Source of the DNA: Bacteroidota bacterium
GTDB taxonomy: Bacteria > Bacteroidota > Bacteroidia > Chitinophagales > Saprospiraceae
DNA: 64,000 nucleotides
Reading direction: 5' to 3'
Assembly (NCBI GenBank): GCA_024642665.1
Contig: JAHEAR010000018.1
Location: 1,242 to 65,241 of the forward strand
Shown here in pieces: positions 11,759 to 29,745 of this stretch; position 1 is the stretch's first letter; every line of letters begins with the position of its first letter. The notes under the pieces are model-generated. The model did not search any database. It worked only from the letters and a program-made list of their open reading frames with translations, and was not told the DNA's origin. Both the position numbers and the translations under genes were made by a program.

Positions 11759-12268
11759 ATGGATTCAATTGAACAACTGTTCAAACAATACTATCCCTTT
11801 GTCTGCAATGTCATACGCTCGTATGTCAAAGACAAAGCCATCACAGAGGATATCGCCCAGGAATTATTTACCGAACTGTGGGTCAAAAGAGAACAACTGA
11901 CCATCCACACCTCTGTGCCGGCCTACCTCCGACGCATGGCTGTCAGCAGATCCCTTAATTATATCAGAGATTCCAAAAAGCATGACTGGGATGAGCTGGA
12001 TGCCACCACAGAGATCGCTCCGAGCCTGTCAGGACCCTCAGCTAATGTGATACAACAAATGGAGGAGGAAGAACTCAGAAAACGAATTGATGCAGCGATA
12101 CTGGACCTGCCGGAGAAGTGCAGAATCGTTTTCCTTCTGAGCCGTCAGGAAGAGATGTCGTACGCCGAGATCGCACAACACATGAATATATCTATCAAAA
12201 CTGTCGAAAACCAAATAGGAAAAGCCCTGAAACTTCTGCGAATTGCTGTAGCAGACCATAGGGGATGA
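11759..12268 (+). CDS. ECF RNA polymerase sigma factor
   Basis: A 169-residue sigma-70 family protein with region 2 (FVCNVIRSYVKDKAITEDIAQELF, about 14-37) and region 4 (helix-turn-helix MSYAEIAQHMNISIKTVENQI, about 131-151). It groups by pattern with the FecI-like sigma factors of Bacteroidota. It is followed after 30 bp by its presumed FecR-type regulator (12299), with which it should form an operon. No TonB receptor or SusC/D pair follows, so the regulon is not evident. Confidence 0.9.
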   Translation: MDSIEQLFKQYYPFVCNVIRSYVKDKAITEDIAQELFTELWVKREQLTIHTSVPAYLRRMAVSRSLNYIRDSKKHDWDELDATTEIAPSLSGPSANVIQQMEEEELRKRIDAAILDLPEKCRIVFLLSRQEEMSYAEIAQHMNISIKTVENQIGKALKLLRIAVADHRG

Positions 12269-12298
12269 AGTAAAAAATCGTGTCTAAAGGAACAGAAC

Positions 12299-13270
12299 AT
12301 GGAGATAACAAATGATATTCGAATTGGCCTTTATCTCTCGGGTGAGATGAAAGGTTCTGATCGTGAGCAATTTGAGCAGGATTTAGCTGCGAATACTGAG
12401 CTGAATGCTGCTTTTGCCGCTGCCAGACGTATCTGGGATACCACCCCCACGGAAGCCAATGAATCCTGGGATGTTGAAGCCGCCTGGTCGCGATTTGCCA
12501 CGAATGCCCCCACCTTACAAAAGAAAGCCCGCAATATCCGAAGAACCCTTTATTGGGCTGTAGCCGCCAGTTTCGCACTGACCGCCGGGATATATTCCAT
12601 TTTCTTCGCCGGCCAAAGTCCGGTAACCTATGCCTATGAGGCAGGTATGACCTCTCCCATTGAACTAAAAGATGGATCTAAAGTGTTTTTAAATAAGGAT
12701 TCAGAGGTTAAAGTGTATCCATTTACTGCCAAAAAAAGACATATAGCCCTTTCCGGAGAGGCATTTGTAGAGGTGGAACCGGATGCCAATCGCCCATTTA
12801 CCGTAGCCTCCTCAGGTACCCTGACAGAAGTCGTCGGTACCTCTTTTAATATCACCCAGGTAGGGGAAAAGACCCGAATTTTTGTCAATAGCGGAAAAGT
12901 GATCTTCTCCGCCATAGAAGATACTGACAATGCCGTAGCCCTCGGTAAGGGAGAAGCCGCCATTTTCGGTGACCAGAAGATGGAACTGATTCCAAATCCA
13001 TCCCCCAATATTATCTCCTGGAAGACCCAAAAGCTTCATTTTGCAAAGCAAATGTCCGTGACTGATATCGTCGCTGATATCTCCGAATACTTTGATGCCA
13101 AGGTAGTAGTGGAAAATGAAGCATCCAAAAACTGCAAAATTACCGCGCCACTTTCCTTCGAGAATCCGGAGATTAAGACCCTGCTCAAAATCGTAGCCAA
13201 GACCATCAGTGCTGAACTGGTGGAAGAGGGCGATACGTATATCATCCGGGGCGGTAAAACCTGCTTGTAA
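12299..13270 (+). CDS. FecR-type anti-sigma regulator
   Basis: A 323-residue inner-membrane protein with a cytoplasmic N-terminus (1-80), one transmembrane helix (about 84-104) and a periplasmic FecR domain. The FecR core motif appears as LKDGSKVFLNKDSEVKV, followed by GEAFVEV and VVGTSFNI. The C-terminal 80 residues form a DUF4974/STN-like module (TAPLSF to DTYIIRG). It should hold the upstream sigma factor until an outer-membrane signal arrives. The usual TonB-dependent transducer gene is absent next door. Confidence 0.9.
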   Translation: MEITNDIRIGLYLSGEMKGSDREQFEQDLAANTELNAAFAAARRIWDTTPTEANESWDVEAAWSRFATNAPTLQKKARNIRRTLYWAVAASFALTAGIYSIFFAGQSPVTYAYEAGMTSPIELKDGSKVFLNKDSEVKVYPFTAKKRHIALSGEAFVEVEPDANRPFTVASSGTLTEVVGTSFNITQVGEKTRIFVNSGKVIFSAIEDTDNAVALGKGEAAIFGDQKMELIPNPSPNIISWKTQKLHFAKQMSVTDIVADISEYFDAKVVVENEASKNCKITAPLSFENPEIKTLLKIVAKTISAELVEEGDTYIIRGGKTCL

Positions 13271-17465: not shown

Positions 17466-17930
17466 TTATTTAAACATATCGGCATAGACGCTGGCCTTTT
17501 TGATATTACCAAAGGCTTCGTCCTGTGTCTTATTAAACTTGGTAGACATAAAGGCCAGTGCTTCGCGCAACTCCTGATAGGCTTCCTGCGGATCTTCAAA
17601 AGTTTCGGCCATTTGTGTTTGCTGAGTGGTTTGTTGACTATAATTCCATAAACCAACAGCGGATACTACAAAAACAAGTATCGCAGCGGCACTGGCGACC
17701 CACCGATAGAGTGGTAACACTAAGGTGCCTGTGCTGGCAGTTTCATGCTTTTTATTGTACGCTTTGATATCTGCTATGGTCAACTTACTGCGTTGTTGGC
17801 GCGTAGTGTGGATCGTCTTAAAGTATTCTGCTTCGGAACTATCCTTACCCATCCATTCATTCATCAGTTGCTGTTCTTCTTGCAGTGATGTTTCAGCTTC
17901 CCAGTATTTATTTAAAGAATTGTCATTCAT
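17466..17930 (-). CDS. Putative anti-sigma factor (single-pass membrane protein)
   Basis: A 154-residue protein with a cytoplasmic acidic N-terminus (1-72), one transmembrane helix (about 76-95, WVASAAAILVFVVSAVGLW) and a short periplasmic tail with the ALAFMSTKFNK helix. No zinc (ZAS) motif is visible. The call rests on topology and on its place 8 bp after the ECF sigma gene and just before the DUF4252 gene. Probably restrains that sigma factor. Confidence 0.65.
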   Translation of the reverse strand: MNDNSLNKYWEAETSLQEEQQLMNEWMGKDSSEAEYFKTIHTTRQQRSKLTIADIKAYNKKHETASTGTLVLPLYRWVASAAAILVFVVSAVGLWNYSQQTTQQTQMAETFEDPQEAYQELREALAFMSTKFNKTQDEAFGNIKKASVYADMFK

Positions 17931-17938
17931 GATGATTG

Positions 17939-18463
17939 TTATATTTGATAGAGGCCAAAAGTGTTCATTTTACTTAGCATGCGTTGCATATGTTTTCGTG
18001 CTCTGAAGAGACTTACTTTAACATCATCGAGGTTAAAGCCGGTCTGTTGAGCGATTTCTTCATAAGACATCTGTTCGATTTCGCGCAGATGAAATACGCT
18101 TCGTTGTTTTTCCTGTAACTGTCCCAGGCAGGTTTGTACCATGTCCATGATGTCCGCGGATTCCATCACCTTGTCGGGAATGGGTTCGCTGTCACTGATG
18201 GAATAGGCTTCATCTACATTCACCTGGTTCAGTGAGTTTTTCGCTTTCCGGAGAACGTCCAGTGATCGGTTTCTTGTCAAAACCATCAGCCACGCTTCCA
18301 GATTTTCAATGTCATCGGCGTCTTTTCGCTTTTGCCATAATTTAAACATGACATCCTGAACTACATCCTCGGCAGCATCCGAATCCTTCACAAACCGCAG
18401 TGCATAACGAAAGAGTTTATCTTTCATCTTGTAGAATATTGCCTCGTATTGTTCGGTATCCAT
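17939..18463 (-). CDS. ECF RNA polymerase sigma factor
   Basis: A 174-residue sigma-70 family protein. Region 2 holds LRFVKDSDAAEDVVQDVMFKLW (about 18-39) and region 4 holds MSYEEIAQQTGFNLDDVKVSLFRARK (about 135-160). First gene of a minus-strand operon with a membrane-bound putative anti-sigma and a DUF4252 protein. The signal is unknown. Upstream lies a CATGGGGC-type repeat tract (18571-18660). Confidence 0.92.
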   Translation of the reverse strand: MDTEQYEAIFYKMKDKLFRYALRFVKDSDAAEDVVQDVMFKLWQKRKDADDIENLEAWLMVLTRNRSLDVLRKAKNSLNQVNVDEAYSISDSEPIPDKVMESADIMDMVQTCLGQLQEKQRSVFHLREIEQMSYEEIAQQTGFNLDDVKVSLFRARKHMQRMLSKMNTFGLYQI

Positions 18464-23114: not shown

Positions 23115-23266
23115 ATAAAAATGCATTCAAAAACAGAAATACCCGGAAATTGAGCGGCAGGGCTGCATTTTAAGTATTTTGGAAATTCAATCTGCGGAGA
23201 AAAAAACTTTCTCCCGGTGTAGCGTTTTTATCCTGATTGGGATTATACCCCTGAAACATCTTTATA

Positions 23267-24958
23267 ATGAACTATCAATTCTTATTTATTCTCACGGTCA
23301 CCTTGTTTATTTCCTGTCATAAGGATTCCGACACGATGATCAGCGTCACAGATACCAAAGATCCCCCTGAGACACTCATCACGACACAGCTTGCCAGTGT
23401 CACAGATACGATCTCACCGGATGCCGGGAATACCTTGCAATTTTTTGCAGGAAAAGACAATGCCTTTGCCCTTAGTCCTTATGCCATTACAGAAGGGCAT
23501 CTGATCCGAAGGGATAGAGAGCTTGTCCAGCTGAATACTTCGGACCATGTATTCTACAAGGTCATATCCCTGATCGAAAACACAGTGAATTACACCGATT
23601 GGGCTGTACCCACTTTAAATATTTTTTCAGGACAGGGGGCAGTAGATGCAAATTATGATTTATCAGGCGATGGAAAATTATTTATACCTGCGAATTCCCT
23701 TATCACATCGGATGGAAATCCTTATGTAGGATCATATACCTTGCACTGGGCTCTTTTCAATCCTTCAAATGAAGAATCACGTTTTATTCCTTCCTATTCC
23801 GCTATTAGCAAAGAAAATCAAATTGTGCAGGTGCTCCCACAATTTTGTTTGTATGTAACTGTCAAGGCAGATGATGGCAGTACACTTAAATTTTCCTCAG
23901 GTGCTTACATTGCATCTAACATATCAAATGAAGCATCATGGTTTTTCGATGATGAAGCAGCTGCCTGGTTACCACAAGGCACAGAGAGTAGAATTGATTT
24001 AGTGGATAACGGCTATTATATGGTAGGTCAAAGTGTGAACCAAACGCGCGTGACAGGTACCCTCCAGATAAATGGATTGCCGGCACCGCATTATGCCATC
24101 CGTATCAATTATGAAGGATTTCAGCGCAATCTGTTCACTACGAATAATGGTACTTGGTCAATAGTATTACCTTCCGGTGAATCATGCGTTGCCTCGGTGT
24201 CGCTGCCTTGTGGTAGTGATCAGCAAATCCCGTTTGATGTTTCCGATGGGCCTTCTTCAACACTCCCAATTGCTATTCAGGAATCGGGTGTCATCAATGC
24301 CTTTATTAAAGGAACAGTGCGAGGATGTGAAGCAGAGGTCATAGCAGATCCCATGTTGATCGTGCGTGGAGCTGCTGCTCAGTTTTATTATCCTTCCAAT
24401 GATGGAATCTCATTGTATTATCCGTCATGTGTTGGAAGTGTTTTGGAGGTGCAGGCGATTCATCAGGATAGTCAGGAATCAGGTCCTGTGATTTCCTGGA
24501 AATCTGCAGATACGGTTGATATCCGTTCAGCTTTTGCTTGTAATGCTGCAAGAAATGAGTATCTGTTTTTAAATGTTGCCGGAGATCAAAAGATGTACTG
24601 GGATATGAACAGTGCTTATACCACTCAGGATAGAGTATTGATAGAAACCGGAGGGAATGAACCTGATGTTGAATTTAAAATTTACATCAGCGGGGATATG
24701 GAGGGGGATTATGAAGATACGGACTTGAATATTCTGTTTGAAGACATGCAGCTGGGGACACGGGGATTTTCCTTAAACTGTCCCAGTGCGACATCCGGTT
24801 GTGGCTTCACGGATTTTTCGATTACTCATTTTCCCAATCAATCCGGGCAATGGATCCGCGGTTATTTTCAAGGGAAATTTTGGATAAAAACGTTTTATCC
24901 ACTGACCGCCGGATACAGAGATGTCTCCGGAGAATTTCAGGTATACCGCGAATTTTAA
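23267..24958 (+). CDS. Large lipoprotein of unknown function
   Basis: A 563-residue protein with a lipobox (LFISC, Cys17). It is beta-rich throughout. The segment FIPANSLITSDGNPYVG resembles the IPANA-type strand seen in Bacteroidota cell-surface beta-sandwich proteins, and VTGTLQINGLPAPHYAIRI resembles a carboxypeptidase-regulatory-like domain. No enzyme motif seen. It ends 14 bp before the ECF sigma start at 24973, so it heads an apparent operon of lipoprotein, sigma, membrane/barrel protein and T9SS protein. Confidence 0.65.
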   Translation: MNYQFLFILTVTLFISCHKDSDTMISVTDTKDPPETLITTQLASVTDTISPDAGNTLQFFAGKDNAFALSPYAITEGHLIRRDRELVQLNTSDHVFYKVISLIENTVNYTDWAVPTLNIFSGQGAVDANYDLSGDGKLFIPANSLITSDGNPYVGSYTLHWALFNPSNEESRFIPSYSAISKENQIVQVLPQFCLYVTVKADDGSTLKFSSGAYIASNISNEASWFFDDEAAAWLPQGTESRIDLVDNGYYMVGQSVNQTRVTGTLQINGLPAPHYAIRINYEGFQRNLFTTNNGTWSIVLPSGESCVASVSLPCGSDQQIPFDVSDGPSSTLPIAIQESGVINAFIKGTVRGCEAEVIADPMLIVRGAAAQFYYPSNDGISLYYPSCVGSVLEVQAIHQDSQESGPVISWKSADTVDIRSAFACNAARNEYLFLNVAGDQKMYWDMNSAYTTQDRVLIETGGNEPDVEFKIYISGDMEGDYEDTDLNILFEDMQLGTRGFSLNCPSATSGCGFTDFSITHFPNQSGQWIRGYFQGKFWIKTFYPLTAGYRDVSGEFQVYREF

Positions 24959-24972
24959 ACAAGGTCCCTCCC

Positions 24973-25512
24973 TTGACACAAAACGAAATCATACAAGGTT
25001 GTAAAGCCGGGCAGGAAAGCGCTTACCGGCAGCTGATGGATACCTATGCCGGTAAATTGATGGGTCTCTGTGTGCGGTATCTGCGTGATCGTCAAAAAGC
25101 TGAAGATGCAGTACAGGAGACGTTTATTCAAGTGTTCAGGTCCGTTCACCAATTCGACGCATCCGGAAACCTGATCGCATGGATGTCACGGATCGCCATT
25201 AATAATTGTCTAAAGGAAATAAAGAAAAGTAAACGAATGGTTTTTACAGAACAAACGCTTCATATGGAAAACTTACCGGTCATGCCGGAGATCGACCGAA
25301 AAATGAGAACAGAAGAGCTGCTGGCTGTATTGGACCAATTGCCTCCGGCTTATCGAATTGTTTTTAACCTTCATCTTATAGAAGGGTACAGTCATAAAGA
25401 GATCAGTACCATGCTGGATATTCAGGAATCCACTTCCAGAACGAAATTAACGAGAGCACGAAAGATGTTGCAGGATTATCTATTTATTCCCACTAAAAAA
25501 TCTATCGTATGA
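24973..25512 (+). CDS. ECF RNA polymerase sigma factor (probable TTG start)
   Basis: A roughly 179-residue sigma-70 protein. Region 2 holds MGLCVRYLRDRQKAEDAVQETF and region 4 holds YSHKEISTMLDIQESTSRTKLTRARKML. The start is taken at TTG 24973 (then ACACAAAACG), since upstream codons of the frame lie inside the preceding lipoprotein gene. The stop overlaps the next ATG by four bases (ATGA), indicating translational coupling to the presumed anti-sigma. Confidence 0.88.
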   Translation: MTQNEIIQGCKAGQESAYRQLMDTYAGKLMGLCVRYLRDRQKAEDAVQETFIQVFRSVHQFDASGNLIAWMSRIAINNCLKEIKKSKRMVFTEQTLHMENLPVMPEIDRKMRTEELLAVLDQLPPAYRIVFNLHLIEGYSHKEISTMLDIQESTSRTKLTRARKMLQDYLFIPTKKSIV

Positions 25513-26936
25513 AAATCTACGATCCATTTAAAAAACAATTACAGCAATATGAAGCTGCTCTGGATAAGGAAAAGCTCTGGGCTAATACAGCGCATGCTAT
25601 TCCGCGAAAGCGTAGGCGAATCGGAATTGTCTGGCTATGGATGGCCGGTGGCCTTCTGGTTGGCGCAGGACTATTTATGTTGCCATCGGATCGAAAAGGT
25701 ACTAGCTCCGGATCCATAGTTGAATCAATTAGTACACCGAAAACAAATAAACCAGAACCTTCAAATGAAATAAATCTTTCGCAAGACCTGCAGCAAAATG
25801 AAAATAAAACAGCTTTGACGGATGAGTCGTCATTGGCAACAAGCAATATCAAAAATTCGCCATCAACTTTAAATACTGAATTGCACCAAGCTAACATGAA
25901 GGTAAGTGCCCGAATCAAAACTGCTGAATCTGAAAACAGTAATACCTCTGACGATAGTGGGATTATACCTCAGGCGATGTCTACGGGAATAACAACAGCT
26001 GCATTGCATACGACCATAGTGGAGGCGATTCAGGATGAAGATATAGTCATGAGCTTCCTTAATGGGGAAGCAATGGATGTCACAGGATTCGGAACAGCTG
26101 AACAACAACGCGTTTATATACCGGGTATCGGGGTAATACCTCTAGGACAGATTGAAGTAAATCAATCAAACCCACGTGCGAATTCATTGCAGAATAATCA
26201 GATAGTTTCAGCAAAACACAGCATGCCGATTGAATTGTTTATGACACAATCATACGGTATTTCATCCTTGATGGTTCATGCAGCCAGTGAAGAGTTGCAG
26301 CATAGAGAGCAGCTATTAAACAACCAAATAGAAAGTCTTGAAAACTTAAGTACCAGCGTTGGTGCTCGATTTTATTTGTCAGACCGATGGATCGTCGGAA
26401 GTGGCCTGCAATGGAATCAACTCACAACAAAAACTAATTTTTCCTGGATAGAGGAGGAACGTTTGACAGGAGAGGGTATTGCAGAGGTCGTGATTGATCC
26501 TGACGGAACGCAAAATTTTCAGACAGGAGAGGTAGGAATTACCAGGCAAACACAGTGGCAAGCTCAACGATATTCAACACATACCACGTTTAATGTGGAA
26601 GCGCAGATAGCCTATCAGCTAGTGCGACATGTGCGATTAGGTATCATGGCGGGTGTCCATGGTACATATAATCTGTTTTACGAAGCACAGGGTAGTGCAT
26701 TTGATGCCCATGATCAACCGATCAGATTTGTACCGGAAGATCTACGATATAAGTTAACATCCCCATTGAATTTTGGATTATTCATAACAGGAACGTATCA
26801 GTTTAATCGTCATTGGGGTATGCTGCTTGAACTACAGGCAGACCGTCTTCATTATCGTGAATATTTAAATCAAACACCAATCACTTACAAGCATAATGTT
26901 TTTGCGTTGGGGATTGGCTTGCGATATGTATTATAA
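25509..26936 (+). CDS. Inner-membrane helix plus beta-barrel-like protein (putative anti-sigma)
   Basis: A 475-residue protein with a short basic cytoplasmic N-terminus (1-40), one transmembrane helix (about 41-58) and a long low-complexity Ser/Thr/Asn linker (about 60-160). The C-terminal half (about 270-475) has outer-membrane barrel-like strands (GARFYLSDRWIVGSGLQW, final FALGIGLRYVL ending in an aromatic/aliphatic strand). Gene order and the 4-bp overlap with the ECF sigma suggest the N-terminus acts as anti-sigma. One chain spanning both membranes is unusual; the barrel-like part might instead stay periplasmic. Confidence 0.65.
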   Translation: MKIYDPFKKQLQQYEAALDKEKLWANTAHAIPRKRRRIGIVWLWMAGGLLVGAGLFMLPSDRKGTSSGSIVESISTPKTNKPEPSNEINLSQDLQQNENKTALTDESSLATSNIKNSPSTLNTELHQANMKVSARIKTAESENSNTSDDSGIIPQAMSTGITTAALHTTIVEAIQDEDIVMSFLNGEAMDVTGFGTAEQQRVYIPGIGVIPLGQIEVNQSNPRANSLQNNQIVSAKHSMPIELFMTQSYGISSLMVHAASEELQHREQLLNNQIESLENLSTSVGARFYLSDRWIVGSGLQWNQLTTKTNFSWIEEERLTGEGIAEVVIDPDGTQNFQTGEVGITRQTQWQAQRYSTHTTFNVEAQIAYQLVRHVRLGIMAGVHGTYNLFYEAQGSAFDAHDQPIRFVPEDLRYKLTSPLNFGLFITGTYQFNRHWGMLLELQADRLHYREYLNQTPITYKHNVFALGIGLRYVL

Positions 26937-27028
26937 TTTCTAATAAAATCATCATTGAAAATCGATGCGCGCAGATCTGAGATGATGGTTCATTAACCCT
27001 TTAACCATTTTTATTAAATAAAAAACGC

Positions 27029-29680
27029 ATGAAAAAAATTAATACAATTCAATTATTTGCCCTGCTGGTATTGTCTCTGATGACATCAGTGATTTCTGCG
27101 CAATTCACTTGTTACGTTGATCTAAACGTTTCACTGGATCCTGCCGGAGAATACATTTTGTTTCCTGAAGATATCCTTGCGGATGGAGATTTGAGCGGGC
27201 TTGACGCTACGGTTTCTCCTTCGTTTTTCACCTGTCAGGACCTTGGTGTCAACGAGGTTGTGCTGGATATTTATGATGGAGCAGAGCTGATATTTTCCTG
27301 CACCACTAATATCCTCGTAGACGATCAAATAGCTCCAACAGCCATTTGCCAAAGCAGTCCTGAATTCACTCTGGATGCCAGTGGTATGCATCTATTCAGT
27401 TTTGAAGATTTAGACAATGGCTCATGGGATGAATGTGGTATCGCACAGTTCCAGATTATTCCTGCGATGATCCAATGTGGAGATGCAAATCCACTGCCTG
27501 TTACATTTATTGTGATGGATGAGGCCGGGAATGCTTCTTCCTGTATCACAAACGTTACCTGGTCTGATTATCCTGATCCTACACCAAATTTAGCTTGCAA
27601 TGCGGATGTTTCAGTTTTTCTTGTAGATGCGGAAGAACTTGAAATTACAGCTGATATGATCCTTGAAGGAGGACCTTATGCATGCCCTGATCATTATCTG
27701 GTCGAGATTTCAGAGAATATGGTTCCACGGGCAGAACCTAAGGTGACATTGGCGGATACGAACAAAATGCTCGTAACAAAAATCACTGATCTGTCCGGTG
27801 GAGGCATGTGCTGGGGTGAATTGCATGTCTACCCGGATGGAAATTGCGGAGAGCCATTTGTCGCTTGTGATACAGCGTGCAGAAACAGTCCTTTTGGTGA
27901 TTGTGCCTCAGGTCATACTGCGGATGATAATGTCGAGTGGCCATGCGATCTTGTGTTTAATGATAATTGCGATCTGTTTATGGAACAACCAACGCCGGAA
28001 TTTTTACTGGAAAATAATCTTGCAGATTCATTGGAGGTTTTTCCTGAAATCATTAATCAGGAATGCTTTATTACGAATATGGCCTTTGAGGACATGGTAT
28101 TTTTGCTTGGAAACGAAAAGCGCATAGAAAGGAAATGGAGTATCATTGACTGGCAAACTGCAATGGTCTATACCTACATCCAGACTATTTATATTTACTT
28201 TCCGGGTATAACTATTTGTGATACGCTTCCATGGAATGCACCTGTAGGAGATTGTGATTCGGGACATACGTTGGATGATGCCATCGAATGGCCGGCAGAT
28301 ATCACAGTCCATACCATATTCGTTTCACCGCAGGATCTCGCGCAGAACCCTGAAGTAGCTTCTGAGGACGTAGAACCACAACTCACAGTTGCATGCAGTG
28401 GTACCTTGGTTAACTATACCGATGTTTATTTTACGATGGATGACACCACTGTAGTGATTGAACGTACCTGGGGTGTCTTCGAAGTTAATTCCGGTACTAT
28501 CTGGTCTTATGCACAGCACATTACGATTGAGAATATCAGTGGTGCAAGTGTTGTATGCGTCACCCGTGAAAATGGTGAACCAATTCCCGGTGTTACTTTA
28601 TCTCCCGGGGTTGTAACAGATGAATCAGGATGTTATTCGTTTGATGAACCAATGGGTGTGATCGTGACTCCTGTCAAGGATAGTCCGTTACAGGAAGGGG
28701 TAAATCTTCTGGATAAGATATTAGCCCATGAAGGCGTATTGGGTCTTCAGACTCTTTCCTTTTACCAGAATAAAGCTGCGGATTTAAGCCAAACGAATGG
28801 TGTCACCACGTTAGATCTTGTCTATTTTGACAAAATAATCGATGGCACTTTCACACCGACCTTTGATCATAACTGGATGTTCTATGATCAATCCAGTCAC
28901 CTGCAAAGTGTGGATATCTCAAACCCACTGCTCCCGTATCATTTTATCGGGGTCAAAATGGGTGATATTGACAATAGCTTTGTGTTACCCTTAACGTCAG
29001 AAATGGATCCCATCGGATTGCAGGCCAACGATGAGATTCTGAACAAGAAAGAACAATATGAGATTCCATTTATTCTTAATGAAAATGTTCGTGTACTAGG
29101 CTTTTCAATCACCTTAGAAAACCCGGGTAATAATCTCAATTTCACAAACCTACTCGCACCTGAGTTGCCGGGTTTCAATCTGGCAGATCATGTTGTTTTT
29201 GAACCGGGGGCTGTACTTATAAACTATATTGTTCCGGAAGAATACCTAGAAAGTGGAATCGCACTCACGGTCGGAACACCATTGTTTTCGATAGCGTTTT
29301 CGCCTTCTGAAAATACCTTTCTAAGTCAGGAATTACAGCTGGGATCAAACCAGGATAATGTACTCCGATCTTCACGAAATACATCAGGACTTGAATTTAC
29401 CCTGGACTGGGAAAATGTGATCGTGAGTTCCGTGATTGGCGCCGGAGCCGGATTAAGCATGGAGTTTTTCCCAAATCCGGTAACGAATGAGATTCATTTG
29501 AAAGGAATTCCATCGAATCAGCAAGGTCTGATCTCCGTGATAGACCCGTTAGGAAGATTGCAATTTCAAAGTGTGCTGACAGAAAATGCAGACCTCAGTA
29601 TCCTGGCACCTGGAATGTATTATCTCCAGGTCAGATTGCAGAATGGACAAACCTATAGTGCCCCATTGTCCAAAATGTAA
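27029..29680 (+). CDS. T9SS-secreted multidomain surface protein with dockerin-like region
   Basis: An 883-residue exported protein. Signal peptide cleaves near ISA-Q (residue 24/25). The N-terminal half has cysteine-rich beta modules, and a duplicated unit carries GDCASGHTADDNVEWP and GDCDSGHTLDDAIEWP. A dockerin-like calcium segment (NGVTTLDLVYFDKII, then FIGVKMGDIDNSF) follows near 590-655. The last 80 residues form a type A T9SS sorting domain (FFPNPV to APLSKM). Likely a structural or adhesive surface protein. It follows the sigma/barrel genes by 92 bp and may be regulated by them. Terminator at 29712. Confidence 0.82.
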   Translation: MKKINTIQLFALLVLSLMTSVISAQFTCYVDLNVSLDPAGEYILFPEDILADGDLSGLDATVSPSFFTCQDLGVNEVVLDIYDGAELIFSCTTNILVDDQIAPTAICQSSPEFTLDASGMHLFSFEDLDNGSWDECGIAQFQIIPAMIQCGDANPLPVTFIVMDEAGNASSCITNVTWSDYPDPTPNLACNADVSVFLVDAEELEITADMILEGGPYACPDHYLVEISENMVPRAEPKVTLADTNKMLVTKITDLSGGGMCWGELHVYPDGNCGEPFVACDTACRNSPFGDCASGHTADDNVEWPCDLVFNDNCDLFMEQPTPEFLLENNLADSLEVFPEIINQECFITNMAFEDMVFLLGNEKRIERKWSIIDWQTAMVYTYIQTIYIYFPGITICDTLPWNAPVGDCDSGHTLDDAIEWPADITVHTIFVSPQDLAQNPEVASEDVEPQLTVACSGTLVNYTDVYFTMDDTTVVIERTWGVFEVNSGTIWSYAQHITIENISGASVVCVTRENGEPIPGVTLSPGVVTDESGCYSFDEPMGVIVTPVKDSPLQEGVNLLDKILAHEGVLGLQTLSFYQNKAADLSQTNGVTTLDLVYFDKIIDGTFTPTFDHNWMFYDQSSHLQSVDISNPLLPYHFIGVKMGDIDNSFVLPLTSEMDPIGLQANDEILNKKEQYEIPFILNENVRVLGFSITLENPGNNLNFTNLLAPELPGFNLADHVVFEPGAVLINYIVPEEYLESGIALTVGTPLFSIAFSPSENTFLSQELQLGSNQDNVLRSSRNTSGLEFTLDWENVIVSSVIGAGAGLSMEFFPNPVTNEIHLKGIPSNQQGLISVIDPLGRLQFQSVLTENADLSILAPGMYYLQVRLQNGQTYSAPLSKM

Positions 29681-29711: not shown

Positions 29712-29745
29712 CAGGTCGGATATCACATCCGGCCTGCTTTTTTTC
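29712..29745 (+). terminator. Rho-independent terminator
   Basis: CAGGTCGGAT-ATCAC-ATCCGGCCTG (one G-T pair) followed by a T run. It ends the T9SS protein transcript. Confidence 0.88.

Follow-up and report, generated by a model that had tools for sequence, protein, structure and literature searches.

The Dma family of Bacteroides thetaiotaomicron includes Dma1 and Dma2, which form pairs with the das1/das2 extracytoplasmic function (ECF) sigma factors of the ECF21 type (PMC13088901, Pardue and colleagues). In a dma2 deletion, expression of the dma2 operon and of das2 goes up strongly, and regulation by dma2 falls mainly on that operon (PMC13088901). In Phocaeicola vulgatus, the envelope-damaging toxin BcpT induces the pair M0N98_03760/03761, which is described as including a periplasm-spanning protein that ends in a barrel (PMC9308784). 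Here, we analyze a four-gene locus in a 64,000-nucleotide stretch of contig JAHEAR010000018.1 from a Bacteroidota bacterium (the window), encoding a lipoprotein, an ECF sigma factor, a 475-residue protein and a surface protein of the type IX secretion system (T9SS). From the computed architecture, the homologues, the gene neighborhood and the conservation of both operon and promoter-like element, we find it very likely that the locus is a sigma/anti-sigma switch of the Dma type whose surface-protein operon is autoregulated.

The 475-residue protein has the domain order of the Dma proteins, from a putative anti-sigma head through a single transmembrane helix and a disordered tether to a barrel, and its gene lies directly after an ECF sigma gene. 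The likeness to Dma1-3 is drawn from their published description and from profile matches in other Bacteroidales records. The Dma family in B. thetaiotaomicron is reportedly also the subject of a PNAS study of 2024, which the Dma paper cites. The host of our locus probably belongs to another order of Bacteroidota, and its operon joins the pair to a lipoprotein and a T9SS cargo, whereas the partners in B. thetaiotaomicron are DUF4943/DUF4858 proteins. The Dma link to vesiculation belongs to the Bacteroides comparison system. The preliminary description of the locus held that its single chain would be a distinct form of cell-surface signalling. Its central idea is right, but the claim of a distinct form is not supported, as this architecture is already described as the Dma family (PMC13088901; PMC9308784). 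What looks new is that such a pair is packaged with a lipoprotein gene, a gene for an exported surface protein and a conserved promoter by which the switch would activate itself.

Two other pairs, M0N98_03760/03761 and that of EcfO, also consist of an ECF sigma factor followed by an anti-sigma factor with a predicted outer-membrane barrel. EcfO and its anti-sigma factor in B. fragilis are reportedly the subject of a J Bacteriol study of 2013. These pairs differ from our locus in their induction by BcpT or oxidative stress and in an O-antigen-length regulon, and no T9SS partner has been described for them. FecI-FecR-FecA likewise signals from the outer membrane to an ECF sigma factor, but relies on a TonB-dependent transducer as a protein of its own and on an anti-sigma factor of the FecR type, neither of which is adjacent here. 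PorA-PorXY-SigP of Porphyromonas gingivalis (PMC7712824) resembles our locus in that a surface protein with a T9SS C-terminal domain acts upstream of an ECF sigma factor. In contrast, it works through a two-component system and has no trans-envelope anti-sigma factor.

Anatomy of the 475-residue protein and its relatives

The AlphaFold2 model, built with 26 sequences, and an RKRRR run before the membrane helix agree with the anatomy proposed earlier, namely a cytoplasmic head, one transmembrane helix and a long disordered linker (Table 1). The head is basic and forms two short helices (residues 4–13 and 20–30), and its residue Trp24 is invariant in the alignment. Since the RKRRR run precedes the membrane helix, the N-terminal head is placed in the cytoplasm. 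The tether of about 180 residues is rich in Ser, Thr and Asn, and its predicted local distance difference test (pLDDT) score stays below 50 over residues 57–236. Its contour length should be ample for the periplasm.

For the C-terminal part (residues 200–475), whose structure prediction the preliminary description had suggested as a check, the AlphaFold2 model shows a confident antiparallel barrel at residues 241–474, with pLDDT mostly 80–94, which we read as eight strands. Strands 3 and 4 (residues 294–370, about 36 residues each) are predicted to protrude from the membrane. The matches listed by Foldseek against the PDB are the outer-membrane barrels FadL, OmpT, OpcA, Ail and OmpA, together with one designed barrel; the TM-scores are low because the tether was included in the query. 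The Pfam match of this domain to OMP_b-brl_2 is weak (E=3.8e-5) and lies below the cut-off. This score would fit an ordinary single-membrane anti-sigma factor that keeps its C-terminal beta domain in the periplasm, as would several relatives of 190–300 residues beside the same kind of sigma factor, which consist of head and helix only. However, given the confident closed-barrel model, the barrel fold matches and the Bacteroidales relatives that exceed the Pfam barrel cut-off, such a protein is very unlikely.

Table 1. Features of the locus in window coordinates, and related loci with their own coordinates.
Feature	Position	Strand	Basis or remark
Predicted ECF-type promoter	23218..23247	+	TGTAGCG 23218-23224, 18 bp, TTATA 23243-23247
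Lipoprotein, 563 aa, operon gene 1	23267..24958	+	lipobox FISC, Cys17; beta-rich
ECF sigma factor, 179 aa	24973..25512	+	TTG start at 24973; Pfam Sigma70_r2 2.8e-16, r4_2 9.8e-17
Dma-type trans-envelope anti-sigma candidate, 475 aa	25509..26936	+	homology, AlphaFold2, adjacency
Cytoplasmic head, residues 1-37	25509..25619	+	alignment, AlphaFold2
Single transmembrane helix, residues 38-56	25620..25676	+	AlphaFold2; sole membrane helix
Disordered periplasmic tether, residues 57-240	25677..26228	+	AlphaFold2
C-terminal outer-membrane beta-barrel, residues 241-475	26229..26933	+	AlphaFold2, Foldseek
T9SS type A cargo, 883 aa	27029..29680	+	TIGR04183 32.4 bits vs cut-off 23
T9SS C-terminal sorting domain, residues 814-875	29468..29653	+	profile match
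Intrinsic terminator	29712..29743	+	10-bp stem then T-run; 3' of T9SS gene; graded strong
T9SS-type-B-ended candidates	L105:3819-4634, L119:7538-8857, L125:7512-8447, L131:7534-8511, L132:7554-8915, L140:7590-8921, L146:7560-8699, L148:7527-8387, L166:7537-8655		directly downstream of ECF sigma
TGCAACC-N18-TCTT loci	L089, L092, L096, L097, L107, L112-L114, L119, L120, L125, L131, L132, L140, L145-L148 (not L147), L156-L159, L166, L169, others		

A search of 149 related genomes found homologues of 430–550 residues, nearly all encoded directly behind an ECF sigma gene. The proposed co-occurrence of this fusion with ECF sigma genes is thus borne out, and 118 pairs were collected. A profile of the relatives matches 103 of 296 sampled Bacteroidota genomes, many matches being partial. 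Beside sigma genes, the host-family profile (A1) matches proteins of records labelled Bacteroides sp. (6.6e-21), Parabacteroides (6e-16) and Tannerella (1e-15), which are barrel-bearing and whose C-termini exceed the Pfam barrel cut-off. Identity to the Bacteroidales relatives is roughly 11–17%. We also collected 79 named loci by sigma similarity alone, each with a gene just downstream, which encodes at least 380 residues in 51 of them. Among the 49 of these 51 that were scanned, 28 match OMP_b-brl_2 and 16 match OMP_b-brl, two sets that may share members. With the profile matches in 103 of 296 genomes, Dma-like anti-sigma candidates extend well beyond the Bacteroidales. At L096:918-3224, a protein of 769 residues with the same head and helix follows the sigma gene directly, and it has no Pfam match at E 0.01.

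The best generic profile matches of the sigma factor itself are ECF/sigma-70 families. The sigma genes of the cassette (the 24973 gene, L031, L204-L219) mostly lack an ATG near the aligned start (15 of 17), and 109 of the 118 Dma genes start with ATG. The commonest junction between the two genes is a 4-bp overlap (32/118 pairs). A non-ATG sigma start together with this overlap would keep the sigma factor no more abundant than its anti-sigma factor.

Gene order and promoter-like elements of the cassette

All four open reading frames (ORFs) lie on the same strand at the coordinates given in the preliminary description, with a 14-bp gap, a 4-bp overlap (ATGA) and a 92-bp gap between them. The gene order and a promoter-like element, both conserved, together with a terminator, back its operon claim. 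The identical gene order is found in a congeneric genome at 42% identity, and the four-gene cassette is present in 15 genomes of several genera. In these 15 genomes a T9SS protein is encoded 3' of the Dma gene, 14 of them homologous to the window protein (itself counted) and one recognized by its C-terminal motif only. Because the order is kept in the congeneric genome and in 15 genomes in all, chance gene order is ruled out.

In an independent search for the lipoprotein within the host family, it lies directly 5' of sigma and Dma genes in 18 of the 20 loci found first and in 12 of another 15, one of these 12 with a small intervening ORF, giving 30 of 35 in total. The three named records with this order (L109, L115, L152) are all labelled Saprospiraceae, which is probably the host family. 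Outside the host family, none of the 11 sampled lipoprotein loci has sigma and Dma genes beside it, which makes the association a trait of the family. The same absence would be expected if the lipoprotein and T9SS genes were unrelated neighbors of the sigma pair. We consider this highly improbable, as the order is conserved within the family, a conserved element precedes the lipoprotein gene and a terminator follows the T9SS gene.

The lipobox residue Cys17 is invariant across 20 lipoprotein homologues, and relatives of the lipoprotein carry CarboxypepD_reg-like domains. Its AlphaFold2 model, made with four sequences only, has a mean pLDDT of 47, too low for interpretation. At the other end of the operon, the 27029-29680 protein has a C-terminal sorting domain, and the host genome encodes the T9SS translocon SprA; the protein is accordingly classed as a T9SS type A cargo. 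Por_Secre_tail is present in all eight cassette homologues of this protein that were tested, with dockerin in five and a cohesin domain in one, some of these matches being below the cut-off. No TonB-dependent transducer gene lies beside the sigma pair, whose neighbors are the lipoprotein, the T9SS protein and unrelated genes. As the 475-residue protein also has no FecR match, a FecR/TonB reading was rejected.

The predicted promoter starts 49 bp before the lipoprotein ATG. In the cassettes, the element 5' of the lipoprotein gene is bipartite, with the consensus TGYARCG-N18-TTNNA. TGYARCG occurs on the coding strand of 16 of 19 lipoprotein upstream regions and never on the reverse strand, whereas shuffled regions give a mean of 0.28 and a maximum of 3. 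In an unbiased search of degenerate 7-mers it ranks first, with 16 sequences against 10–14 for the best shuffled words, most of which are AT-rich. The dinucleotide TT follows 25 bases from its start in 12 of the 16. Among the held-out loci, TGYARCG is found in 6 of 16, with TT at the same place in five of those six.

When the regions 5' of 103 related sigma genes from the whole phylum were searched, (A)TGCAACC emerged, followed by T at position 25 and by C at 26, in the form TGCAACC-N18-TCTT (Table 1). Judged by sequence, TGCAACC looks like the promoter class of the related sigma group and TGYARCG like its cassette variant. These elements offer candidate target sites for Dma-linked sigma factors, for which PMC13088901 and PMC9308784 give no DNA element. 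In the host genome, the strict pattern has 12 occurrences and the reversed control 9; the site of the operon itself is the sole one just 5' of a gene start and outside a long ORF. A wider regulon is therefore not claimed. The element was not found 5' of the other Dma-type pairs in the host genome.

One lipoprotein paralogue (L223:3347-5110) has no sigma or Dma neighbors, yet is preceded by an element with identical spacing. The sigma factor at L214, encoded in the same genome as this paralogue, may therefore act on it in trans.

The proposed switch and its candidate signals

We propose that the 475-residue protein would hold its head in the cytoplasm, cross the inner membrane once, run through the periplasm as a disordered tether and reach the outer membrane with its barrel. 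In the resting state, its head would sequester the ECF sigma factor of the preceding gene, as position and homology suggest. An event at the outer membrane or cell surface that acts on the barrel or tether would free the sigma factor, perhaps through proteolysis of the tether. The free sigma factor would then transcribe its own operon from 23218-23247. Because of the conserved promoter, the gene order and the terminator, the lipoprotein, sigma factor, anti-sigma factor and T9SS protein are predicted to rise together, and the conserved promoter-like element is consistent with such autoregulation.

Several observations weigh against this switch. The head of 37 residues is short and matches no anti-sigma model of Pfam. 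The distance-matrix correlation of head and sigma factor over 117 pairs is 0.12 (null standard deviation 0.046, maximum 0.17), close to the permutation range, and therefore lends no support to their co-evolution; that of barrel and sigma factor is 0.35. The head is probably too short for this kind of test. The T9SS gene lies 92 bp downstream, no conserved sigma element of its own was seen in front of it, and its co-transcription is presumed. The exact TGYARCG is also missing in 10 of 16 held-out (distant family) cassettes.

For the Dma proteins, whose signal is still sought in Bacteroides, the lipoprotein and T9SS cargo of this cassette are concrete candidate ligands or outputs. Assembly stress, a barrel ligand and the co-encoded surface proteins may all be considered, and any specific trigger can be named tentatively at best, with less than even confidence. 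The barrel might act as an assembly sentinel: when the beta-barrel assembly machinery (BAM) fails, the barrel would stay in the periplasm, the chain would be degraded and the freed sigma factor would report outer-membrane assembly stress. This is possible, though doubtful. It agrees with the P. vulgatus Dma-type pair, which is induced by BcpT in a response that overlaps that to the BamA inhibitor bacteroidetocin A (PMC9308784), but the operon here encodes surface proteins rather than assembly factors.

Alternatively, the barrel might bind the lipoprotein and/or the T9SS protein, so that the switch reports their arrival at the surface. The joint presence of the four genes in 15 genomes, the lipoprotein adjacency in 30 of 35 loci and the nine anti-sigma relatives with a T9SS sorting domain described below would all suit such feedback, and PorA-PorXY-SigP of Porphyromonas is a precedent (PMC7712824). 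On balance we find it unlikely, since co-regulation alone explains the gene order and many Dma pairs have neither neighbor. A broader form of the idea, in which the barrel monitors delivery or loss of both surface proteins within a closed homeostasis loop, and head and helix joined to either a barrel or a T9SS sorting domain serve as one-chain envelope reporters across the phylum, is a speculation that we hold to be unlikely. If it were true, the freed sigma factor would make more lipoprotein and T9SS protein.

A second architecture and further sigma factors

Nine proteins with a Dma-like head, encoded beside the same kind of sigma factor, end in CHU_C / Bac_Flav_CTERM, a T9SS type B sorting domain (Table 1). 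Their common head is recognized at E=3e-14 to 1e-4 by a profile built without those nine, and each has one membrane helix. A PKD domain precedes the CHU_C end in six of them, and seven exceed the Pfam cut-off for CHU_C. The TGCAACC element is located 5' of the sigma gene in eight (L119, L125, L131, L132, L140, L146, L148, L166). If the CHU_C domain is exported by the T9SS, these proteins would provide a second anti-sigma route to the surface, or a sensor of T9SS export. Alternatively, they may carry a periplasmic Ig-like sensor. One search of open-licence papers yielded no description of this architecture.

The host genome encodes 13 ECF sigma factors over the Pfam cut-off, five of which are followed by a Dma-like protein; for that at C41, the support is a helix and a weak Pfam barrel match only. 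Besides the pair described here, there are four more such pairs (L058:2847-5856, L059:2382-5510, L063:3897-6397, L054:2719-4888), and lipoprotein-like genes adjoin three of these four. The Dma-like protein at L054 has its membrane helix only at residue 117, corresponding to a longer head. Two further ECF sigma genes are located in the window (11759-13270, + strand; 17466-18463, − strand), each followed by a one-helix anti-sigma candidate whose C-terminus is not of barrel length.

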